Shown here in pieces: positions 2,398 through 60,439 of a DNA stretch of 64,000 nt. This stretch comes from a virus, in the IMG/VR virus record IMGVR_UViG_3300021519_000006, positions 35,939-99,938 of that record; one strand, 5' to 3'. Below the pieces are notes generated by a model. That model was not told the DNA's origin. It saw only the letters and a program-made list of their open reading frames with translations, and made no database searches. Position 1 is the stretch's first letter; every line of letters starts with the position of its first letter. The translations under genes and the position numbers were made by a program.

Positions 2398-2597
2398 TCT
2401 TCTACTGGTAACTCTTCTGCTGCAGGCTCTGTAACAACAACTTCAGGTGCTACCTCTACTACAACTTCAGGCTCAACTGCTTTCTTGCTAACCTTCTTTA
2501 CAGGCTCTACAACGGCCGCTGGAGCGATAACAGGTTCAACGAAGGGTACAGAAGGGGTTTTTCTCTTTGGTGCGTTCCACGGGGCTGCGTAGGCCAT
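2394..2597 (-). CDS. Low-complexity Val/Pro/Glu-rich small protein
   Basis: A 67-residue protein with an N-terminus MAYAAPWNAPKRK followed by repeated V, P, E and A residues, so it is likely disordered. A GAGAGGA ribosome binding site lies 6-7 bases before the ATG. It is the first gene of the leftward packaging operon, directly after a divergent intergenic region. Confidence 0.65.
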   Translation of the reverse strand: MAYAAPWNAPKRKTPSVPFVEPVIAPAAVVEPVKKVSKKAVEPEVVVEVAPEVVVTEPAAEELPVEE

Positions 2598-2802
2598 GTG
2601 ATGATCCTCTCAAATAAATTGGGGTTGCGGGTTGTCTTACCCCTGTATTTACTGTTAGGGTAGTGGTCTATCCAAGAAATTGGGTAGCAAACCTCGAAGC
2701 AAAAAAGGTTGCAGACCAGCGCGGTAGACATAGACCGAGCTGCTCGGGTAAGGTGACAGATTACCAGGAGTTAGGGATGGCCTTCTAGACACAGGGGATG
2801 AC
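2598..2802. promoter_or_regulatory. Divergent intergenic region (packaging genes left, lysozyme right)
   Basis: These 205 bases separate the leftward packaging genes from the rightward lysozyme gene, so they must hold the start signals for both. I see ribosome binding sites at each end (GAGAGGA leftward, AGGGG rightward). I do not see a promoter I would defend by its -35/-10 sequence. Confidence 0.4.
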
Positions 2803-3336
2803 GTGCAATTTAATGTATATCAGAAATCAGCAATTGTAGTATTAGCGGCATACTTGCCCTTTATAACTAGCGCAGCTTTCGCCCAAGACGAGAGCCCAAC
2901 CGTTACCACCCAAGTACAACCTGTGAAGGTTGGACTAGACGCCTACGTAGGCGCCACAGAGCTCTCGCCAACAGAGTTGGTAGATCTGCTCCGTTTGGTT
3001 GGTTTTGAGGGTAAATCCTTAAAACTAGCCTGGGCCGTAACCATGAGGGAATCTAGAGGACACCCTCTCTCACACAACACCTCAAAGTATTCCGGAGACA
3101 ACTCCTATGGGTTGTTCCAAATTAACATGCTTGGGAGCCTCGGACCTGAACGTAGGGAGAAGTTTGGCATCAAGTCAAACTCACAACTACTTGATCCAGT
3201 AACCAATGCTAAGGCGGCGTTCTATATGAGCGCTAAAGGTACAGACTGGGGATCTTGGGGCCTTGGCCCCAATGCCTATGATGGTACCGCAGCAGAGCCG
3301 GCCGTAACCGTATGGCTGGTTGATTTTCCAAAGTAA
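2803..3336 (+). CDS. Secreted lysozyme / transglycosylase-like protein
   Basis: A 177-residue cell-wall-degrading enzyme candidate. Residues 1-28 look like a signal peptide or signal anchor (hydrophobic IVVLAAYLPFITSAAFA, cleavage near AFA-Q). The rest matches the SLT/lysozyme fold: AVTMRESRG carries the likely catalytic Glu, and NSYGLFQIN is the typical following motif. The start is GTG with AGGGG upstream. It stands alone on the plus strand and ends at a bidirectional terminator. The signal sequence suggests export by the host Sec system, independent of a holin. A second, unrelated lysin (CHAP) lies at 40.8 kb. Confidence 0.75.
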   Translation: MQFNVYQKSAIVVLAAYLPFITSAAFAQDESPTVTTQVQPVKVGLDAYVGATELSPTELVDLLRLVGFEGKSLKLAWAVTMRESRGHPLSHNTSKYSGDNSYGLFQINMLGSLGPERREKFGIKSNSQLLDPVTNAKAAFYMSAKGTDWGSWGLGPNAYDGTAAEPAVTVWLVDFPK

Positions 3337-3340
3337 ATAG

Positions 3341-3366
3341 AAAAGGCCCCGAAAGGGGCCTTTTTT
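3341..3366. terminator. Bidirectional terminator between convergent genes
   Basis: AAAAGGCCCC-GAAA-GGGGCCTTTT is a compact GC-rich hairpin with a GAAA loop. It has T-runs on its 3' side on the plus strand and A-runs on the 5' side, so it works in both directions. It sits 4 bases after the lysozyme stop and reaches the end of the leftward HNH gene. Confidence 0.9.
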
Positions 3367-3652
3367 ATTTCTTCTTAGCTCTACGTTTGTTTTCTTTGCC
3401 TACGTTCTTAGAGTGACTCATAGCTTGTAGGTTGGACATCTTGTCGTGACCTTTACGGCCTCCGTTGTCCTTATGATCTACGTCAGTGTCTTTAGATAGC
3501 TTGCCATGCTTGTCTTCATAGTCTGCACGAGCTTTATTCTTGGAAGTGGTGTGCCACTTTCCATCTTTACCCTTTGTCTTGTAAACATAAATAGGGCGGC
3601 CGCCATTAGCTGCAGAACCTTTATAAGGTCCAAACTTCTTGGTCTCAGCCAT
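3365..3652 (-). CDS. HNH endonuclease
   Basis: A 95-residue basic protein. The C-terminal half carries an HNH core: DVDHKDN (first His), MSNLQ (Asn) and SHSKNVG (last His). A small HNH nuclease close to terL is common in tailed phages, where it helps terminase cut DNA during packaging. That role is inferred here from family and position. The N-terminal residues (GSAANGGRPIYVYKT) probably bind DNA. Confidence 0.75.
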   Translation of the reverse strand: MAETKKFGPYKGSAANGGRPIYVYKTKGKDGKWHTTSKNKARADYEDKHGKLSKDTDVDHKDNGGRKGHDKMSNLQAMSHSKNVGKENKRRAKKK

Positions 3653-28894: not shown

Positions 28895-30406
28895 CTATTC
28901 GAGTTGCTCAGAGATTATTCTAGTCGTTTCCTCTTCAGAAATACCTCCGTTTGGAAGTTCTCTTAAAGTATTGGCCCTATCTCCGAACAGCGCTGACATT
29001 ACACCACCCGAGGTTTGACGTTCTACCGTCATTCTTACGAACTCTTTATTCTCTTCAAGTTCTTTGACATTCTTTACCAATTTAAAGAGTCTATCAATTT
29101 CTTGACCTGTATTTGGATCAGGGTAACCACCGTTTAGTTCTTCCGCAAATCGTGCAAAAGCTACTCTAGCGCCTTGCATTTCGATGATTGCGTTCAATAA
29201 ACCCTTAAGTTGTTCTTTAGTTTTTACCTCAACTGGCAAATTAAACGCACATGTGTTAGAGGGTTTGAAGGCTGGGCAATTCGCTGCAACGAAGCAAGTA
29301 TCGCATTGACGTAATGACGTTGAGTTACTTTGCATGATTGAGACGTCTTTAACAACGTCTCTACCGGACTCATCTTTGTCCACAACTGTCTTAGTGGATA
29401 TTGAAAAAACTGGCAAATTGAGCATCTCTGAAGGGTCTCTAACCGTAACTTTTGCTGGTTCCAGGCCAGATTCTTTCCGCACCTCAACCTCTCTGTTATC
29501 AGGATCTACACCTAGCGTTTCCGCGTCTCCGGGACTATCTATGTTCACACTCTTATCAGATAACTTCTCGTCATTAACGACAGTTAAATGACCGGGCTTC
29601 TTTTTATCCAAGTTTTTCTCCAGCTGCAAGTAGCTCCAAATAGCGAGGCGGGTTACCTCGGTACTATCATCATTCATAATCTTATCGAAGTCCAAGCCCG
29701 CTTTTTCTATAACAGATTTATAACGGGGACGAGCTTGGTCTTTTTGTTTCTTCTGGTATCGGACTAATCTAGTCCCATCCCATACAATTGTTTCTCCCCG
29801 CATCATTGGACTAAGCCAAGATAAAGTGCTAGCGGTAGCCAGGGGAACTTGACGAAGGTTATCGGGTTTGGCGCAACCTAGTCCGTGAAAGGTAGTACCA
29901 AATTGGCTCTGTAGAGCCCGTGTGCGCCCGGCTAGCGTAACGTCAGCCTCTATGGTCTCTCCTAGTATGGCTACGTTCTTCCATTGTTCAGCAAGCGCAA
30001 ATAGCCCTGTATGGCTTGAGTCCTGATGCCATACCGGCCAGTATTTATCCCCTAATTCAAAGCCAATGGTGCGGCGTTGTTCTGCGATCCAAGAGTTTCC
30101 TAGTGTTGCTGAGTCAAACTCCACAGCCGCCTCAATACGGTCATAGTTCATAGCAATAAAGTCATCGTAACCAGCCGCTAGATCCTCAAGCTCCCGAGTA
30201 CTTAAGATGGTGGAGGTGGCGGCGGTTCCTGCAGTAACGTAGATTTTTACGTCATCTGGGTACTTCTCTGATAATAGATAGTCTTTGGTTTTAGGCAGGC
30301 CGCGCTTAGTTAGCCCGGTGTAACTGACGCTAATGTTCTTGACTCCAGCATCAATAAGAAGTAATCTGTGGGACGGAACTTCCCCGCCCATAAATACGAT
30401 ACTCAT
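28895..30406 (-). CDS. TGT-superfamily protein, DpdA-like (7-deazaguanine insertion candidate)
   Basis: A 503-residue protein. The middle has FHGLGCAKPDNLRQVPLA followed by TLSWLSPMMRGE, close to the HGLG and D/ST-SWL-G patterns of tRNA-guanine transglycosylases and of DpdA, which swaps guanine in DNA for a 7-deazaguanine base. The N-terminus has LLLIDAGVKNISVSY. A Cys cluster (CDTCFVAANCP, later NTC) in the C-terminal third may bind zinc. If correct, the phage DNA is modified against restriction. No preQ0 synthesis genes are seen in this window. It overlaps the next gene by 4 bases. Confidence 0.55.
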   Translation of the reverse strand: MSIVFMGGEVPSHRLLLIDAGVKNISVSYTGLTKRGLPKTKDYLLSEKYPDDVKIYVTAGTAATSTILSTRELEDLAAGYDDFIAMNYDRIEAAVEFDSATLGNSWIAEQRRTIGFELGDKYWPVWHQDSSHTGLFALAEQWKNVAILGETIEADVTLAGRTRALQSQFGTTFHGLGCAKPDNLRQVPLATASTLSWLSPMMRGETIVWDGTRLVRYQKKQKDQARPRYKSVIEKAGLDFDKIMNDDSTEVTRLAIWSYLQLEKNLDKKKPGHLTVVNDEKLSDKSVNIDSPGDAETLGVDPDNREVEVRKESGLEPAKVTVRDPSEMLNLPVFSISTKTVVDKDESGRDVVKDVSIMQSNSTSLRQCDTCFVAANCPAFKPSNTCAFNLPVEVKTKEQLKGLLNAIIEMQGARVAFARFAEELNGGYPDPNTGQEIDRLFKLVKNVKELEENKEFVRMTVERQTSGGVMSALFGDRANTLRELPNGGISEEETTRIISEQLE

Positions 30407-37983: not shown

Positions 37984-40308
37984 ATAAGAACTCTGCGCCT
38001 ACTTGCAGCCTCATTTGTAGCACTATCCGCAGCTTTTTTTCCCATATTATTCGCAGAACCAGCCCACGCCACGTGTGTAACAACCGCACAGTCTATAGCT
38101 GCAGCGGCGACAGCCCCTGTTGTTTTAAATACTGAAGTAATTACACCGGGGGATACGCCTACAGCTACGTCTACACCCGTGCTTGTACAGGATACCTGTG
38201 GTGGAGATGATGTTTCTTATCAAGTTGCCTTACCCACCGCTATAAATTTTCAAGGCGATACTTATACAGCTGTCTACGCAACAACTAATTCAACTATTGT
38301 TTTTGGCCAACAAGATAATAATTACGCCACTTTTCCAAATAGACCTTCAATCTCAGTTAATGCTTATGATTGGGTGGTACTAGACCCTAATAACCCAAAC
38401 CCATCTAACTCATACCCAGCAGGGTGGAGGGCGCCTGACGAGCATTTAATTATTACTTCAAGTCAAGCAGGTTTTCAAGTTGATTTGGCGGTCCGCCCTT
38501 ATGGACAAAACGCCTCAGCCAACCCACTTTCAACAATTGTGGTGACTGCGGCAATTAACCCTGATAATACTTTGACTATTACTTATCTTTCAGATGTTCA
38601 GCAAGGCCTGAATACTAGAACAGGGGTTCGTTTACCTAATGGTCAGGTAGTTACTTTAGAACAAGCAGGTCTTACTCGTGTGTATATAGCACCAGTTGTA
38701 ACAGCAGAAGTAATTGTAGAACCTACTCCGAGTCCAACTCCCAGTCCAACTCCAACTCCAACGCCTTCACCATCTCCTTCAGAAACAGCAACGCCCCAGC
38801 CGAGCCCAACACCAGAACCAACAGTGACACCAGAACCTTCTTCATCGCCTAGTCCTTCCCCATCGCCTTCGATTTCGCCTGATCCAGAGCCATCTCCAAC
38901 TCCGACTGTTTCACCTTCACCGTCTCCCACTCCGACTTCTGAACCCACACCCACTCCGAGTCCAACGTCGACTTCAGGCACGGAAGTTTCGCCCACGCCT
39001 CAGCCACAGCAGTCTCCTGAGCCAACTCCTTCTCCAAGCGCCACACCCGAAGCAACACCGACCAGTACCCCAGCACCGAGCCCAGAGCCAACGCCAACAC
39101 CAATTCCACAACCATCACCATCTCCTACTCCTGATCCTGTTGCGCCAATAGTGCCTCCGAGTGTACCCGCAGTTGAGCCAACCCCTGCGCCGCAACCTCA
39201 ACCGCCGAGCGAACCGACTCCCGGACCTGCTCCCGACCCCGTTCCTCTTCCTCCATCAACGACTCCACCAGAGACTCCTCAGATCCCGACTCCATCCACC
39301 GATTTACCATCTGACGTGCCTCCTCCAGATACTGCTCCCATAGAGCCTCTTCCAGATTCCCCATTACCTATTTCTCCTGATCCTGTTGAAAATGTTCCAA
39401 CGCCCGCTCCAGAGCCTTCTCCAGAGGAAACACCCATTCCGGAACCTGCCCCTGTTGATACCCCTGTTGACGAATCTCCTGCACCTGTGCCAGTAGATCC
39501 TGCACCTGTAGAGGAACCTGCTCCAGTTGATGTACCATCCGTAGATCCTACCACTCCTGAAGAGCCACCTGTTGCAATTCCTGACCCTATAGATGCAATT
39601 GGTGATCCAGTGGACCCCCCAATAGATCCCCCACTACCTGTTGAAGAGCCTCCAGCAACTGTTGAAGAAGCAGTAACAGCTACTGTGGATGATGCGTTAT
39701 CTGATGGAAAGCTTTCTGCTTCAGATGCTGATGCAATTATGGAATCTTTAAACGCAGATGGAGAAGTTACTGCAGAAGAAGTGTCCGCCCTATCTGATGC
39801 TTTATCAGCAGATGGCAAACTTACTACTGCTGAAAAAGATCTTGTAGCGGAAGCACTTATTGAGTCAGTAGCGCCAGGAGAAACTCTTACTAAAGAGCAA
39901 ATTCAAGACGCGGGCATTGAGTATAAAGACCTTCCACCAGAGACTCCTGTTGAGGTTAGGCAGGATGAAAATGGAAATGAAGTTATCATTACAGCAGACG
40001 TTGCCGCAGCTCTTGTATTACTAGAGAACCCAGCGGAATTAATTGGTGAATTATTTAGTGACCCAGGTCAAGCCCTCCAAGCACTCGGAAGTATCGGTGC
40101 GGATATGAGCCCACAAGAACGAGAAGAAGCACAAAAGATGGTTGTTGCTGCCGTTATTGCAGGTAATGCTGCTATTAACGCAGTAGGGGCCGCAGCTTCT
40201 GCTGCAGGTGGAGCTACCCAAAGTGGTGGTAGTACCGGTGGCGGTGGCAGTTCTGGTGGCGGTGGAGCTTCCGGAGAAACTAAAGGCGTTAGGAGACGTA
40301 AACCTTGA
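37984..40308 (+). CDS. Secreted proline-rich stalk protein with apparent ATA start
   Basis: About 774 residues. AAGGAG is 8 bases before an ATA codon at 37984. From there the frame reads [29 protein letters not shown], in two parts RTLRLLAAS and [12 protein letters not shown], an ideal signal peptide cut after AHA. No ATG, GTG or TTG fits; the first GTG in frame is at 38179, past the signal. A globular domain (residues about 65-245) is followed by a stalk of about 280 Pro/Ser/Thr/Glu-rich residues. Two EF-hand/dockerin-like DGKLS/DGEVT repeats and a Gly-rich end with RRRKP follow. It is probably exported and spans the wall. It heads the lysis cassette. Confidence 0.7.
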
Positions 40309-52414: not shown

Positions 52415-52470
52415 ATTTTGCCCTCCTTAAAACCAAACTCTATACCACGCCACTGACATGATGCAACTTG

Positions 52471-52542
52471 CTGACCCTCCTGGATTCGAACCAGGGACCT
52501 AGAAGTTAACAGCTTCCCGCTCTGCCGCTGAGCTAAGGGCCA
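52471..52542 (-). tRNA. tRNA-Asn (anticodon GTT)
   Basis: Read on the minus strand the cloverleaf is complete: acceptor TGGCCCT with AGGGTCA, T8, D-arm GCTC/GAGC, anticodon stem GGAAG/CTTCT around loop CTGTTAA (GTT), and T-arm CCTGG-TTCGAAT-CCAGG. The discriminator is G and CCA is not encoded. Length 72. It is the only tRNA I find. It may help translate Asn-rich late proteins or serve as an attachment site. Confidence 0.93.
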
Positions 52543-54832: not shown

Positions 54833-55215
54833 TTCCAACCACGCTGTTGTCGGTATTTTTGGCTTTTATACACGTTTGAGTGTAAATTTCTTGCTTTACG
54901 ACTAATTCTAATAGCGTCTCTAGTAGCGTAATGCAATCCCTTTTTTTGGTATTTTGGAGTTTTGTGTAAAGTATGAACTGCTTGATGGCAGTCTGGACAA
55001 AGTAAAATTAAATCTGTTAGTTTTTCTACACCTAAATTTTTATAAGTCTTGTGGTGCATATGAAACCCCGATTTTTTTGGCACGTCGCATCCCCAACAAA
55101 ATTGGGGCAAATTACTTGCAAAATACAATTCTCTTTTTGCACGCCAAGCATTGGACTGGATATATAACCGATACTTTGTACTGGGTAGTGCACCCAATCT
55201 AGGCTTAGAAGCCAT
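54829..55215 (-). CDS. HNH endonuclease
   Basis: A 128-residue HNH nuclease: CWGCD and CPDC hold a structural zinc, and FHMHHKTYKNLG with LILLCPDCHQAVH gives the His-Asn-His core. A basic end (KSQKYRQQRGWK) follows. The start at 55215 (MASKPR) has GGGGG/GAGAGG upstream and overlaps the primase by 11 bases. It may be a homing or a replication-linked nuclease. Confidence 0.85.
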   Translation of the reverse strand: MASKPRLGALPSTKYRLYIQSNAWRAKRELYFASNLPQFCWGCDVPKKSGFHMHHKTYKNLGVEKLTDLILLCPDCHQAVHTLHKTPKYQKKGLHYATRDAIRISRKARNLHSNVYKSQKYRQQRGWK

Positions 55216-56182
55216 AAATAGCCCCCTCTCCAAACACACAGTGCTTAGCATTCTCTAGGCCATATCGTATACGGTCCTCTGTCATATCGCCAACATCTTT
55301 GACGCCAGAGTCTCCGTAATTAAAGAACCAGCATTCCATACCCAAAGACTTAACCTTTGCCAAGATCGCTAGTGCAGCTTTTTTGCCAGCGGCATCGATA
55401 TTAGGGTTATCAAAAGCCATAATTAACCTATCCGCTTTACGAAATAGTTCTACCTGAGCATCGCTGACAACAGCTCCAAAAGTTGATACGCCCTGACTCA
55501 AGTTTACAGCTGCTAATTTTACAACGTCCAAAGGGGACTCGACAATGATCATAGTTCCAGGATTCCAAGCTTCTAACCCGAATAGAGCTGTTGATTTAGC
55601 TACTCCGGTAGGGCGGTTACGAAAAGTTCTATTGGTCTGACCTTTTTCTTGCCAACCAAGTAACTTACCGGTATCTGGATTACGGATAGGAGTAATCCAA
55701 GTCTCTGCACGTTGGTCCCATTTAACTGAATATGTTTTGCACGCTTCGGTGGTTAAGCCCCTTGCATCTAACGCCCATTGGGGAGGTTCAGAATAAACAG
55801 CTAACCGCGCCTCGCTCATCTCAAGGGGGCGAGAGGGAGGGACGTAAGAATCTTTTAATGCCTCAAGTTCCTTTGATAGAAGCTCAAAGTCAATCTCAAC
55901 ATTACTACGTAGCCACGTTTTAGCAGCTTCGTAATCTAAACGTCCCCAGCTAGTCTGAAAATCCTGAACCTCCGCAACGAGCGTCAGGAGCGTGCCTTTG
56001 TATCCACAGGAGAAGCAATGGTGGACACCGGTTTCTAGGTTGATAGACCACGAAGGGTTATGGTCTTCTTGCCCAGTACGTTCTAGGTGCATAGGGCAAA
56101 TACCCATCAACTCACTATTGCGTTGATCGGTTGGAATGCCTAAGCGCAGAAGTGCTTTCTGCACGTCCCCTTCTCTATACAT
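55205..56182 (-). CDS. DNA primase (zinc finger plus TOPRIM)
   Basis: A 325-residue primase. The N-terminal CHC2 zinc site is C29, H32 (CPMH) and C56, C59 (CFSC). The TOPRIM domain has IIVESPLDVVKL and LIMAFDNPNIDAAG, with a Glu and Asp metal site. There is no helicase domain, and a separate DnaB lies at 56.9 kb. It makes RNA primers for the lagging strand. Confidence 0.9.
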   Translation of the reverse strand: MYREGDVQKALLRLGIPTDQRNSELMGICPMHLERTGQEDHNPSWSINLETGVHHCFSCGYKGTLLTLVAEVQDFQTSWGRLDYEAAKTWLRSNVEIDFELLSKELEALKDSYVPPSRPLEMSEARLAVYSEPPQWALDARGLTTEACKTYSVKWDQRAETWITPIRNPDTGKLLGWQEKGQTNRTFRNRPTGVAKSTALFGLEAWNPGTMIIVESPLDVVKLAAVNLSQGVSTFGAVVSDAQVELFRKADRLIMAFDNPNIDAAGKKAALAILAKVKSLGMECWFFNYGDSGVKDVGDMTEDRIRYGLENAKHCVFGEGAIYGF

Positions 56183-56413: not shown

Positions 56414-56660
56414 CGTATTCCTCCTTAGGACGATCATCCATCATTACGTAGTCTTCCGGCATATCCGGCAAAGTTGGCGCTGTAGCCATAGACCCACACT
56501 CAGCACACTCCATGTCTAAAAAATACATAGAAATTTCGTAGTCTTGAAACATAGCCTTTATATCCCACAAAGTAGATCCACAAACACATACGTGTGTAGG
56601 TTCTCCTCTAAGGTCCATAGCGTTCTCATAACTTGGTTTTAAATCTTTAATTTCTTTCAT
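56394..56660 (-). CDS. 88-residue zinc-ribbon protein
   Basis: MKEIKDLKPSYENAMDLRGEPTHVCVCGS... with CVCG and CAEC about 30 residues apart, a zinc ribbon, and an acidic tail (RPKEEYDGEEED). The ATG at 56660 (AAGG upstream) overlaps the whiB stop. The function is unknown. Confidence 0.65.
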   Translation of the reverse strand: MKEIKDLKPSYENAMDLRGEPTHVCVCGSTLWDIKAMFQDYEISMYFLDMECAECGSMATAPTLPDMPEDYVMMDDRPKEEYDGEEED

Positions 56661-56908
56661 ATTGATACCTTCTTCCGGCGACGCATGTTGCGACGCTCTC
56701 TGGGAGTTGTAGCTCCCCAAATTCCGTCAAGATCTGGGTGAGCTAATGCGTATGTTAAACATGCACTTGTTAAAGGGCATTCATTGCAAACAGACTTTGC
56801 AGTAAGAACTGCGTTCCTGTTTTCATACTCTTCGGGAAAGAACAACTCCGGATCAACTTCGGCGCATAGCTGGCTTCCGTTAAATGGACTTAAATTGAGG
56901 AGATCCAT
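56657..56908 (-). CDS. whiB: WhiB-like Fe-S regulator 3
   Basis: An 83-residue, complete WhiB: C15, C41, C44 and C50 (CNECPLTSAC) and LDGIWGATTPRERRNMRRRK (turn and basic helix). I set the start at 56908 (MDLLNLS), which overlaps the dnaB end by 29 bases. An open frame further upstream is only the dnaB shadow. It probably binds host sigma factor and redirects promoters. Confidence 0.9.
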   Translation of the reverse strand: MDLLNLSPFNGSQLCAEVDPELFFPEEYENRNAVLTAKSVCNECPLTSACLTYALAHPDLDGIWGATTPRERRNMRRRKKVSI

Positions 56909-58118
56909 ACTCTTCAAACTTCCCTTCTTCCCAGTCCCAAAGTAGATCGCTGGTTGCTGGTCCGCAGTTACGGCTAGCAACAATACGTAGTTCACGAGAA
57001 CTATCGTCGTCTTCATCTTGCTTTTGTAATCCAAGGATTACGTCTGAGTCTTGATAGAAAGAAGAGGAGTAACCAATGGCATCCGCGGATACTTGGCGCT
57101 TCTTCATCTTCCATAACAAAACTTGGGTAGAAACAACAATAGGAAGTTGCTTAGCCATAGCTAAGTGCTTCAGATTGCGAGTGATGCTTGTTAGTGCTTG
57201 TGGAGTATTTTGCTCTCCACTAACGTCGTCAGTCATAAGATAGACGCCGTCAATAAACACAATGTCTGGACGAATCTTTTCAATCTTTGCCGCTAGTCCA
57301 GTAACGGTCATTGCAGATATAGAATCAGTTAAATAAAACTTGTGCATCTGCTCCATCTCTTCCAAAGCTTTTATATAGCGGGCTTCTTCGTCCTTATTAA
57401 GGTTTCCACGAATAAGGCGTGAGTGAGCAATCTGAGCTCTCATAGAGTCATGGCGATGTTGTTGCTCCATGTTTGTCATTTCAAACGACTGAAACATAGG
57501 AACAAACCCATCCCGGTGAACATTTACTGCCATCTGCATTGCAAGGACTGACTTACCTGTTTTAGGTGGGGCAATGATTGTTACTAACTGTCCTGGTTGC
57601 AGTCCGGCAGTAGCTTCGTCAATAGTTTTAAATCCGGTTGCAAAACCAATCAAACCGTTGGGGCGAGTTTTTATATTTAAATACTCTTCAAAACGCTGTG
57701 TTGCATTCTCAGTCAAATCAATGTCTGTTGATTTAGATGGGCCATCATCTGCAATACGTGCAATGCCTTGGTTCATTGCTGCTAAAGCAGCGTTGTGATC
57801 TCCACTAGCAATTGCTTCTGCTGAAGTCTGTACAACATCAATAATGCTTTGGCGTTTACGATATTCAATTAATTGATCAAGAAGATACTCTGCTGAATCA
57901 TCTACTGCTAATAATCTGTAAGTTGGAAAATTATCTTTAACTGTTACTGCTGTTGGAACTTCTGCGTACTTAGTCCAATGCTGACGAAGAAATCTCCACA
58001 CCTGTCGGTTTTCATCTACAAAAAACCAATTGTCTTCTACACCGGCTTCAAGTAATGGGGCTATGTCACGAGTACGAATTGCTCTAGATAAAAGACGGAG
58101 TTCGTTATCTGCTGCCAT
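56880..58118 (-). CDS. dnaB: Replicative DNA helicase, DnaB-like
   Basis: A 412-residue protein. The N-terminal domain is helical. The RecA-like core has IIAPPKTGKSVLAMQM (Walker A, about residues 178-194), VFIDGVYLM (Walker B) and LPIVVSTQVL. It unwinds DNA at the fork and works with primase and loader genes next to it. GGAGG lies upstream of the ATG at 58118. Confidence 0.92.
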   Translation of the reverse strand: MAADNELRLLSRAIRTRDIAPLLEAGVEDNWFFVDENRQVWRFLRQHWTKYAEVPTAVTVKDNFPTYRLLAVDDSAEYLLDQLIEYRKRQSIIDVVQTSAEAIASGDHNAALAAMNQGIARIADDGPSKSTDIDLTENATQRFEEYLNIKTRPNGLIGFATGFKTIDEATAGLQPGQLVTIIAPPKTGKSVLAMQMAVNVHRDGFVPMFQSFEMTNMEQQHRHDSMRAQIAHSRLIRGNLNKDEEARYIKALEEMEQMHKFYLTDSISAMTVTGLAAKIEKIRPDIVFIDGVYLMTDDVSGEQNTPQALTSITRNLKHLAMAKQLPIVVSTQVLLWKMKKRQVSADAIGYSSSFYQDSDVILGLQKQDEDDDSSRELRIVASRNCGPATSDLLWDWEEGKFEEYGSPQFKSI

Positions 58119-58524
58119 TTGCAATCGCCTCCATGTCTAAGTACCAAGATCCATAGCGTCCAGCTCTTGCTGGAATGTCTACAACATACTTTAATTCCGG
58201 TCGATATGGAAGTTCTGCAACTAGATCTGCCGGTACGTTATAAGAGTGTGCATAGTTAAACGGATTAGTCCCCAGGTTGTCAAGATCTGACAACACATCG
58301 TCCATATCCTTTTGTGAATAGTCGAACCCAACCAACTCTAGGGCGTAACCCTGCTTGTCTGCAAATCGCCAAAACAAAGATAAAGCTTGACGGTTATAGG
58401 TAACTTCTTCGCCAGTTACTGGAACACCTAATACTTTTTTGATTGTCGGTCTACGGGAAAGTACACAATCTAGTGTTACAGCAACTCGGAGAGGAACCTC
58501 ATTTGAGATGTCCCCTCCACGCAT
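58105..58524 (-). CDS. HAD-like protein, possible
   Basis: A 139-residue protein. VAVTLDCVLSRRP near the N-terminus may be a changed HAD nucleophile loop (L-D-C-V-L in place of D-x-D-G-T), and YALELVGFDYSQKDMDDVL could be the second HAD motif. It ends with PARAGRYGSWYLDME. A similar degenerate HAD-like protein lies at 30.4 kb. The evidence is weak. Confidence 0.4.
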   Translation of the reverse strand: MRGGDISNEVPLRVAVTLDCVLSRRPTIKKVLGVPVTGEEVTYNRQALSLFWRFADKQGYALELVGFDYSQKDMDDVLSDLDNLGTNPFNYAHSYNVPADLVAELPYRPELKYVVDIPARAGRYGSWYLDMEAIANGSR

Positions 58525-58820: not shown

Positions 58821-59498
58821 TCATCGTCGTCGGTCTCCTTGCTTAGCTATTATGGCAAGTGGAATGAAAGCTTCACGGGCAAAACTACCCATAGGTTCTC
58901 CATACACTGTGCCCCAGTTTTTGAGTGGAACGTTAGTTGTAACAATAGTGGGAAGACCCGCATTAAAGCGAGCTCGTAGCAAAGCGTCAAAAGTATTCTC
59001 AGCCCAACCGTTGGCAGTTCGGTACTCTTTGCCAAGATCGTCTAGAACAAATGTTCGAACGACGTTTTCCTTGGAAGCCTCTCCGTAAATCCCATTGATC
59101 ATAGTTTCGGTTACGTCGTCAAATTCAGACCATTGGGCCTTCTGAAGGCGTAGTAGCTTTGGATAGTCCATGAACATGCCTGGTCGCTTAGGAGTCAGAT
59201 CTGGAACTCCCCAACCAACCTTTGGCATAGTCATTAGAAGCTCCTGGAGGGCCACAGACGCAAGAGTAGTCTTGCCGTGACCTGGTTCCCCTACCAGCAT
59301 TAATCCTAGGCCACAGGTACGTTCTCCGGCAGCTTGGATGACTTTTCCAGACCGAACTAATTCGACCCAGTCCCTAACTTTGTCTAAAGATTCACTTGGC
59401 TCTAAATCATCAAATTGCCACCCAACGGTTTTCATTGGGAGACCTGCTGCATTGATCTGCGCCCGGATACTTCCGGGGAGTTCTGCAATGTTGTACAT
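58821..59498 (-). CDS. DnaC/IstB-like helicase loader ATPase
   Basis: A 225-residue AAA+ protein: LMLVGEPGHGKTTLAS (Walker A, 70-77), TFVLDDLGKEYRT (Walker B) and a sensor region PTIVTTNVPL. It loads DnaB onto the origin. The start overlaps the initiator stop by one codon (TGATG) and has GGAGGG upstream. It is the middle part of an initiator-loader-helicase operon. Confidence 0.88.
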   Translation of the reverse strand: MYNIAELPGSIRAQINAAGLPMKTVGWQFDDLEPSESLDKVRDWVELVRSGKVIQAAGERTCGLGLMLVGEPGHGKTTLASVALQELLMTMPKVGWGVPDLTPKRPGMFMDYPKLLRLQKAQWSEFDDVTETMINGIYGEASKENVVRTFVLDDLGKEYRTANGWAENTFDALLRARFNAGLPTIVTTNVPLKNWGTVYGEPMGSFAREAFIPLAIIAKQGDRRR

Positions 59499-60439
59499 CA
59501 GCCCTCCAGTAACTTAAGCATCTTTTCTTGGTGTGCCTTCATATCTTCGTCTTCGTAAACAGTTTCTGCAACTCGAGAAACAATTCCGTGGACAGATTGG
59601 TAGTAGGCAATAAAGCGACTATACAGAGGACTTCCAACTCCTGCATCTCTGGTAAGTCGTGGATCCGCAAAAAACATCCGGATTGCTTTTAGTAAAGCTA
59701 GGCGAGTAACGCCCTCACCAACCATCTTGTTCATCCAAGTAGTCAAATGCTTACCGTTAACTTGGCTAGGTGCGCCATGGTCTGCGTCGCGGTTTAAATC
59801 GTAGAACTCTGCAACAAGGTCTGATGTAGTCCATTGATCTTCAGGGCGTTCGCTACGGCGCATTGATTCGGGAACAGCCATGAACTTGTTTTTCTTGTAC
59901 TTCTTGTTTCGAAGGGCTGTTTTATCTTCAACCTTACCGACAGCGCCTGGAGTGGCGTCGGATTCTTCTTGAACTCGAAAACTGTATTTTTTGCGTTCAG
60001 GTTGCTCTTCATCAAAAGTGGGCCAAGTCATTACGGTACCTTTCTTCTCAAGGGGCTCCGCCCCTATAGATACAGTTACGTTAGTAACTGTATCTATATT
60101 AGAGCTATTAGCTGTACTAGTACTATTGTCTATAGCTATAGTACTAACAGTGGACAGAACACTCGTATTTGGAGTGTCGGCTTCAGTTACATATAAGTTT
60201 AGTTTTGGGTCAGAAAATTTAAGAAAGGTATTCCATTGCCCGGCGTTTTGCTGGAATCGGACGGCCTTAATATAGTGACTGTCTTTCAATTCTTTCATTG
60301 CTTTTGTCATAGCGTATTTACTTTCGGGGTGCGCAGCAGACATCTCGTCTACAGATGCAACACGACCGATTTCCAAAAAAAATGCGTATAGCCCTTTTGC
60401 AGCTAACGACAAACTTGGATCTGAGATTGGTGACCTCAT
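59498..60439 (-). CDS. Replication initiation protein (winged-helix, lambda O-like)
   Basis: A 313-residue protein. Residues 1-85 form a winged helix (LAAKGLYAFFLEIGRVASVDEM, AMTKAMKELKDSHYIKAVR). Residues 97-130 are a Ser/Thr/Asn-rich linker coded by palindromic DNA. The C-terminal half has a helical domain (QWTTSDLVAEFYDLNRDADHG, then MVGEGVTRLALLKAIRMFF) that may bind the loader. GGAGGA precedes the ATG. It is followed by DnaC-like and DnaB genes. Confidence 0.8.
   Translation of the reverse strand: MRSPISDPSLSLAAKGLYAFFLEIGRVASVDEMSAAHPESKYAMTKAMKELKDSHYIKAVRFQQNAGQWNTFLKFSDPKLNLYVTEADTPNTSVLSTVSTIAIDNSTSTANSSNIDTVTNVTVSIGAEPLEKKGTVMTWPTFDEEQPERKKYSFRVQEESDATPGAVGKVEDKTALRNKKYKKNKFMAVPESMRRSERPEDQWTTSDLVAEFYDLNRDADHGAPSQVNGKHLTTWMNKMVGEGVTRLALLKAIRMFFADPRLTRDAGVGSPLYSRFIAYYQSVHGIVSRVAETVYEDEDMKAHQEKMLKLLEG
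60051..60150. other. Candidate replication origin inside the initiator gene
   Basis: AGGGGC-TCC-GCCCCT (60051-60065) abuts a perfect 15-bp stem TATAGATACAGTTAC/GTAACTGTATCTATA (60065-60098, loop GTTA). Then come palindromes GTACTAGTAC (60114-60123) and CTATAGCTATAG (60130-60141) and the arms TAGTACTAT/ATAGTACTA (60118-60146). The stretch is AT-rich and codes for the linker between two protein domains. In lambda the origin lies at the same place in gene O. Confidence 0.55.

Follow-up and report, generated by a model that had tools for sequence, protein, structure and literature searches.

A tandem hairpin pair conserved in structure inside a phage initiator-type gene probably marks a replication origin

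Two abutting hairpins, H1 and H2, have been found inside the gene of an initiator-type protein in the window analysed here (64 kb out of a 99,938-base virus record), and comparison with related genes makes it probable that this pair marks a replication origin. The interpretation to which we give somewhat better than even chances is that of a putative in-gene origin, located inside its own initiator gene, whose working part is the tandem hairpin pair. It is considered the best reading because a GC-skew minimum falls at the site, the neighbouring genes follow a replication order, and there are precedents for in-gene origins in SPP1 oriL and the lambda ori.

The initiator gene and the replication module

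The hairpins belong to a replication module encoded on the minus strand, with the following features:

59498..60439, minus strand: initiator-type gene, 313 aa (open reading frame, AlphaFold2 model, fold and profile comparisons)
58821..59498, minus strand: DnaC-like helicase loader (phrog_50, E 3e-21; AAA)
56880..58124, minus strand: DnaB-like replicative helicase (PF03796, E 9e-32)
56657-57034, minus strand: WhiB-like transcription factor gene, between helicase and primase
55205..56182, minus strand: DnaG-type primase with Zn ribbon and Toprim (PF01807, PF13155)

Along this strand the order is initiator, DnaC-like loader, two small genes, DnaB-like helicase, WhiB-like gene and DnaG-type primase; the succession of initiator, loader and helicase that had been proposed in an earlier, sequence-only reading was thus recovered, with the primase after it. 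Terminase, ribonucleotide reductase, DNA polymerase and a UvsX-like recombinase are also encoded in the window. A single tRNA gene, tRNA-Asn(GTT), lies among the replication genes (52470-52542, minus strand), and a Queuine tRNA-ribosyltransferase family protein (phrog_887, E 1e-56) is encoded at 28895-30406 on the minus strand; phage proteins of this type can put 7-deazaguanines into DNA. The host is likely an actinobacterium, judging from the WhiB-like gene and from the nearest named modules, which are those of Streptomyces, Gordonia and Mycobacterium phages. The closest of them is that of Streptomyces phage BRock (helicase 34%, loader 31%), in whose 17-kb region a hairpin like H1/H2 is absent. 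No homologue covering the full initiator protein was found among named phages. The similarity of Rhodococcus phage Whack gp38 (L332) is restricted to the N-domain; its gene carries, at a similar depth (L332:2772-2790), a 19-nt palindrome, CCGGTGACC-c-GGTCACCGG, which could be due to chance in GC-rich DNA.

An AlphaFold2 model of the initiator built with 20 homologues, of moderate confidence, consists of a winged helix (residues 12-75), a disordered linker (residues 83-192, with pLDDT <50) and a helical C-terminal domain (residues 205-312). The palindromes do fall in the DNA encoding this disordered inter-domain stretch, as had been proposed. The N-domain matches winged-helix DNA-binding proteins in the PDB (Foldseek; weak, best E 0.03), the DnaD N-terminal domain being rank 26 among these matches, and the same PDB search gave no match for the C-terminal domain. 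The protein has no Pfam match and a weak PHROG match to 'DNA binding protein'. A homology to lambda O was considered and rejected, since no Phage_rep_O domain (PF04492) was found in the record by a search that detected its positive control.

Two hairpins and three incidental palindromes

The palindromic features of the initiator gene are listed below, without strand except for the loop:

60065..60098: hairpin H1, perfect 15-bp inverted repeat, retained through compensatory changes in 127/127 distinct genes
60080..60083, plus strand: H1 loop, GTTA on the plus (non-coding) strand and TAAC on the coding strand; C(GTTA)G is a GNNA loop
60052..60064: hairpin H2, GGGGC-TCC-GCCCC, with a 5-bp GC stem, abutting H1 exactly
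60114-60123: further palindrome GTACTAGTAC, short and weak
60130-60141: further palindrome CTATAGCTATAG, short and weak
60118-60146: further palindrome TAGTACTAT/ATAGTACTA, short and weak

The palindrome cluster is confirmed, and chance is far from accounting for it. The arms of H1 (60065-60079 and 60084-60098) are complementary at 15/15 positions, and H1 is the longest hairpin of the 64-kb window, the runner-up having 10 bp; the longest hairpin did not exceed 11 bp in 300 synonymous-codon shuffles of the initiator gene, or 12 bp in 20 Markov-1 copies of the window. Both the perfect 15-bp stem and the GC-rich stem adjoining it had been described in the sequence-only reading, and both are upheld. 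The three further palindromes that it had added are present in the window, but they are weak and missing from most relatives; the one at 60130-60141 is already broken in a relative that is 97% identical (L002, CTATAGATATAG). Seen across the relatives, therefore, the cluster really consists of two conserved hairpins plus three incidental palindromes.

Conservation of the fold and not of the letters

A search with the letters of H1, leaving the loop free, among 2.9 million viral contigs returned 62 stretches, all of them in homologues of the initiator gene and all with the coding-strand loop TAAC. H1 occurs once per record in 14 records, always within this gene. The H1 palindrome was not found in 85,000 bacterial and archaeal genomes, nor was a relative of the protein found in a search of bacterial and archaeal genomes, and a BLAST comparison of the motif with 50,697 phage records gave chance matches only. 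Relatives with differing H1 letters were gathered by three profile searches, the third of which was run after the hairpin rule had been seen and is thus an out-of-sample test; the rule held in every complete gene among the relatives that it added. The main count set comprises 255 IMG/VR loci with a complete gene, corresponding to 127 distinct gene sequences. A perfect hairpin of 8-15 bp exists at the H1 place in all 127, with all 15 pairs in 77 of them, and 26 stem sequences are in use. The coding-strand loop is TAAC in 90 genes, TAC in 36 and TAAA in one (L303, initiator homologue at 2501-3406), where an A-T pair closes the stem TTAATAGGACTTAA; this is the sole exception to a C-loop-G arrangement.

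The stem letters change in a concerted manner. Among 31 distinct H1 versions, two-sided changes have been observed at 14 of the 15 pairs, 92.7% of cells pair (61% in shuffled and 30-40% in slid controls), one-sided changes affect about 1 cell in 465, and the covariation score reaches 0.78, whereas shuffled versions score 0.18 and slid partners about 0.1. In 92 distinct genes, all 920 of the 920 cells of the ten inner pairs are Watson-Crick, neither G.T nor A.C occurring, and 62 two-sided changes from one Watson-Crick pair to another are counted by parsimony when these 92 genes are placed on a protein-domain tree. The core TAC-loop-GTA is nearly invariant, whereas the outer 12 pairs vary freely yet remain paired. 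H2 covaries as H1 does, its stem letters varying with pairing kept; it appears in relatives as 21 stem/loop types and normally starts immediately past the 15th position of H1.

Codon usage within the stem leads to the same level of constraint. In the 43 distinct genes sharing the H1 of the window, 10 of 11 invariant stem codons use a single codon, as against 0 of 49 comparable invariant codons outside the stem; this synonymous freeze is confined to the stem, and the letters are therefore held at the DNA or RNA level and not by the protein. In other clades the H1 place encodes different peptides. The hairpin, together with its loop and the H1-H2 spacing, is retained down to about 35-40% protein identity. 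Loss of the palindrome from close relatives that keep the linker had been proposed as a sign against the element; the main palindrome was retained in every relative. As judged from these alignments, conservation of the structure and not of the stem sequence shows selection to act on the folded shape itself, and template-switch mutation could, besides selection, aid the perfect pairing.

GC skew

Ten near-complete records of 93-105 kb were rotated to place H1 at zero and the gene on the minus strand; they are related, and so do not amount to ten independent tests, and their unclosed contigs were handled as circles. After detrending, the cumulative GC skew reaches a local minimum no more than about 1 kb from H1 in 10/10 records. 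This minimum is global within 1.4 kb of H1 in 4/10, the global one being 14-25 kb away in the other 6/10. In the mean curve of the ten records, the global minimum lies 0.3% of the genome from H1 and the maximum at 69%. A skew minimum elsewhere had been named beforehand as counting against an origin, and the minimum averaged over these related records is at the site. The result supports an origin, short of proof, coming as it does from related and unclosed records. A sharp local skew of -0.24 at 38-40 kb of the window is due to the gene at 38179-40308 (plus strand), which encodes a 709-aa protein with a long Pro/Ser/Thr repeat (SPTPSPTP...) and without PHROG match.

The AT-rich linker DNA

Upstream of H1 the gene contains a further stretch of interest:

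60099..60174 (extent approximate), no strand: AT-rich linker DNA with skewed codons (AGT Ser, ACT Thr, ATA Ile), from linker-versus-rest codon usage

The 90 nt upstream of H1 are AT-rich without being extreme: they have 67% AT against a genome mean of 56%, which places them in the top 3% of windows, and in one relative the same measure ranks only in the top 29%. Over the 25 codons upstream of H1, AGT accounts for 53% of Ser codons (11% in the rest) and ATA for 64% of Ile codons (14% in the rest). Judging from this codon shift, pressure at the level of the sequence also seems to act on the linker DNA, and 60099..60174 is a candidate unwinding or initiator-contact region. It has no definable repeat unit, and no iterons were detected in 59900-60300, which contains short two-copy repeats only. 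Clusters of ACTAGT or TAGTA were tried as initiator boxes and discarded, their counts near H1 being not clearly above those of the densest windows elsewhere.

Alternative explanations

The hairpins might instead act in the initiator transcript, where H1 and H2 would fold and control processing, stability or translation of a C-terminal isoform. The main argument for such an mRNA element comes from an internal start:

60029..60031, minus strand: Met137, a candidate in-frame internal start from which a C-terminal product of 177 aa would result; ATG/GTG in relatives
60039..60043, minus strand: Shine-Dalgarno-like motif AAAGG, 7 nt upstream of the internal ATG (sequence; pattern in relatives)

In 107 distinct genes this position, about 27-36 nt after H1, carries ATG (99) or GTG (8) followed by x-Trp, always with a Shine-Dalgarno-like motif 3-11 nt upstream (107/107). 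An alternation between ATG and GTG only is the pattern of a start codon and suggests a second, C-terminal product, so that Met137 may give rise to a predicted C-terminal isoform. Hairpins and internal start are co-retained in all distinct genes examined, and the coding-strand RNA hairpin would be stable (-18.9 kcal/mol). On the other hand, RNA helices normally contain G.U pairs, and the zero wobble in 920 inner cells, when many of the changes are transitions between A-U and G-C that would pass through G.U, points to DNA, as does the low rate of one-sided changes (about 1 in 465). Moreover, triloops such as TAC and TGC on the coding strand are, to our knowledge, not special as RNA loops, a search of Rfam gave no match, and an mRNA element leaves the skew minimum unexplained. 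A role in the transcript is therefore regarded as unlikely.

Another possibility is that the palindrome is a double-stranded operator to which the winged-helix protein would bind as a dimer, for origin recognition or autoregulation. Palindromes are typical binding sites of protein dimers, the core TAC-loop-GTA is nearly invariant, and the site lies within the gene of a DNA-binding protein, as it does for lambda O. This duplex operator is nevertheless less likely, and we rate it as distinctly improbable, because a switch between 3-nt and 4-nt loops would displace the half-sites by one base and because there is no correspondence between the stem letters and the predicted recognition helix: a single stem sequence is found alongside 12 predicted sequences of this helix, and several different stems alongside helices that are nearly identical, while the outer 12 pairs vary freely with pairing kept. 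Still further down the scale, with a slim chance, is a DNA-structure element unrelated to an origin, serving recombination, packaging or an N4-type hairpin-dependent promoter. Many such systems use long inverted repeats, and the N4 virion RNA polymerase promoters obey the C(G..A)G loop rule too, but the element is present in a single copy per genome within one gene, the terminase is about 59 kb distant, no integrase was seen beside the hairpin site, and a scan of the ten larger window ORFs revealed no polymerase (the whole-genome search with PF00940 had no positive control). As for a neutral or selfish palindromic insertion without function, template-switch repair can keep palindromes perfect; this reading is hardly credible and is already contradicted by the universal retention of the hairpin, at the same spot in 127/127 distinct genes and down to about 35-40% protein identity, with a conserved loop, a fixed H1-H2 distance and a second hairpin that covaries.

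A model for the putative origin

If the hairpins act as DNA, the loops offer an indication of the strand. In 126/127 genes, the loop of H1 reads C(GTTA)G or C(GTA)G on the non-coding strand, that is, GNNA or GNA; these genes thus follow a rule of a G..A loop with a C-G closing pair and stem letters that are free if paired. The H2 loops of 14 of the 21 types are GCA, GTCA, GTA or GAA on the same strand; GCA is the loop of most relatives. Two further types, including that of the window, have GGA (a GNA loop) on the coding strand, and 5/21 have no GNA loop on either strand. Loops of the GNA and GNNA kinds beside G-C pairs have been reported to form extraordinarily stable DNA mini-hairpins (PMC4686876), and a sheared G-A pair would be kept at 3 or 4 nt, so that the loop length may be either. 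In phage N4, a 5'C:G3' closing pair and a G..A loop are required for extrusion, and the hairpin of one strand resists SSB while the opposite one is melted by it (PMC4496689). In a nearest-neighbour DNA energy model, the advantage of the non-coding hairpin amounts to 0.4 kcal/mol with a 4-nt loop and to 0 with a 3-nt loop; given this small preference, the proposed strand assignment derives from the published data on special loops.

Under the in-gene origin reading, the winged-helix initiator and negative supercoiling would destabilise the AT-rich linker DNA, after which H1 and H2 would extrude. The non-coding-strand hairpins, with GNA/GNNA caps closed by C-G, would remain folded, whereas single-strand binding protein would melt their coding-strand counterparts. 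The pair of hairpins so fixed would then hold the bubble open and mark the site where the loader delivers the helicase and priming takes place; the protein that reads the hairpins we infer rather than observe. A more specific proposal, to which we give somewhat less than even chances, is that of a structure-coded origin in which the initiation machinery recognises tandem GNA/GNNA-capped ssDNA hairpins of the non-coding strand in place of iterons, stem letters being allowed to drift as long as pairing, loop and H1-H2 spacing are held. The lack of iterons as binding sites for the initiator counts against the origin reading. The biological significance of the family is that of an experiment made by nature: over 25 stem sequences are compensated, the loop obeys a constant rule and the spacing is fixed, so that a role for hairpins or cruciforms at lambda-type origins becomes directly testable by recoding with the protein unchanged. 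The pair would also allow the origin to be marked in phages of about 100 kb that form a common, widespread group, represented here by metagenomes only, and would be an example of protein-coding DNA whose amino-acid sequence would be dictated by a DNA fold.

Comparison with known systems

The lambda ori lies inside gene O, and the role of hairpins or cruciforms at lambda-type origins has been left open (PMC7466680). The present site, which coincides with a local skew minimum, is placed as in lambda in the inter-domain linker of an initiator gene, and the two systems share an origin within the initiator gene (putative here), the succession of initiator and loader, and some AT-rich DNA. They differ in that O recognises four iterons in lambda, which are imperfect inverted repeats (PMC7466680), whereas here iterons of the lambda type (about 19 bp) are lacking and the gene, whose protein is not a Phage_rep_O member, contains a long hairpin and a GC hairpin, both of whose stems covary. 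The lambda-like origin claimed by the sequence-only reading therefore stands as to linker position, gene order and skew minimum and is not supported as to mechanism, also because the hairpin structure is kept while its sequence changes, unlike the lambda iterons; the likeness holds for position and gene order only. Another example is Bacillus phage SPP1, with oriL inside gene 38 (PMC6316719). SPP1 shares with the window an initiator (38), a loader (39), a DnaB-type helicase (40) and an in-gene origin in 38, and differs in having direct repeats and an AT-rich unwinding element, with no covarying hairpin pair described (PMC6316719); direct-repeat boxes plus AT-rich element of the SPP1 type were not found at the candidate origin (59900-60300).

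Among hairpin-dependent systems, the N4 virion RNA polymerase promoters have in common with H1 the 5'C:G3' closing pair, the G..A loop and a stem whose letters only need to pair, and they differ in their short stems, their number (three early promoters) and their use by a virion RNA polymerase (PMC4496689). Here, the stems are of 15 and 5 bp and the element lies in an initiator gene, one H1 copy in each of 14 records instead of several promoter-like copies. The ssiA and ssiB sites of RSF1010 are also hairpin DNA at a replication start (putative here), contacted by a replication enzyme (PMC4434180). That system has a primase of its own, RepB', and a single site on each strand (PMC4434180), whereas a DnaG-type primase and a tandem pair are found here. 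No description of such a hairpin-pair element was found in a limited, open-access literature search. New, in comparison with these systems, is the combination of two hairpins in tandem, strictly paired and with a conserved loop, and stem letters that are free to vary, at the place where lambda and SPP1 carry repeats.
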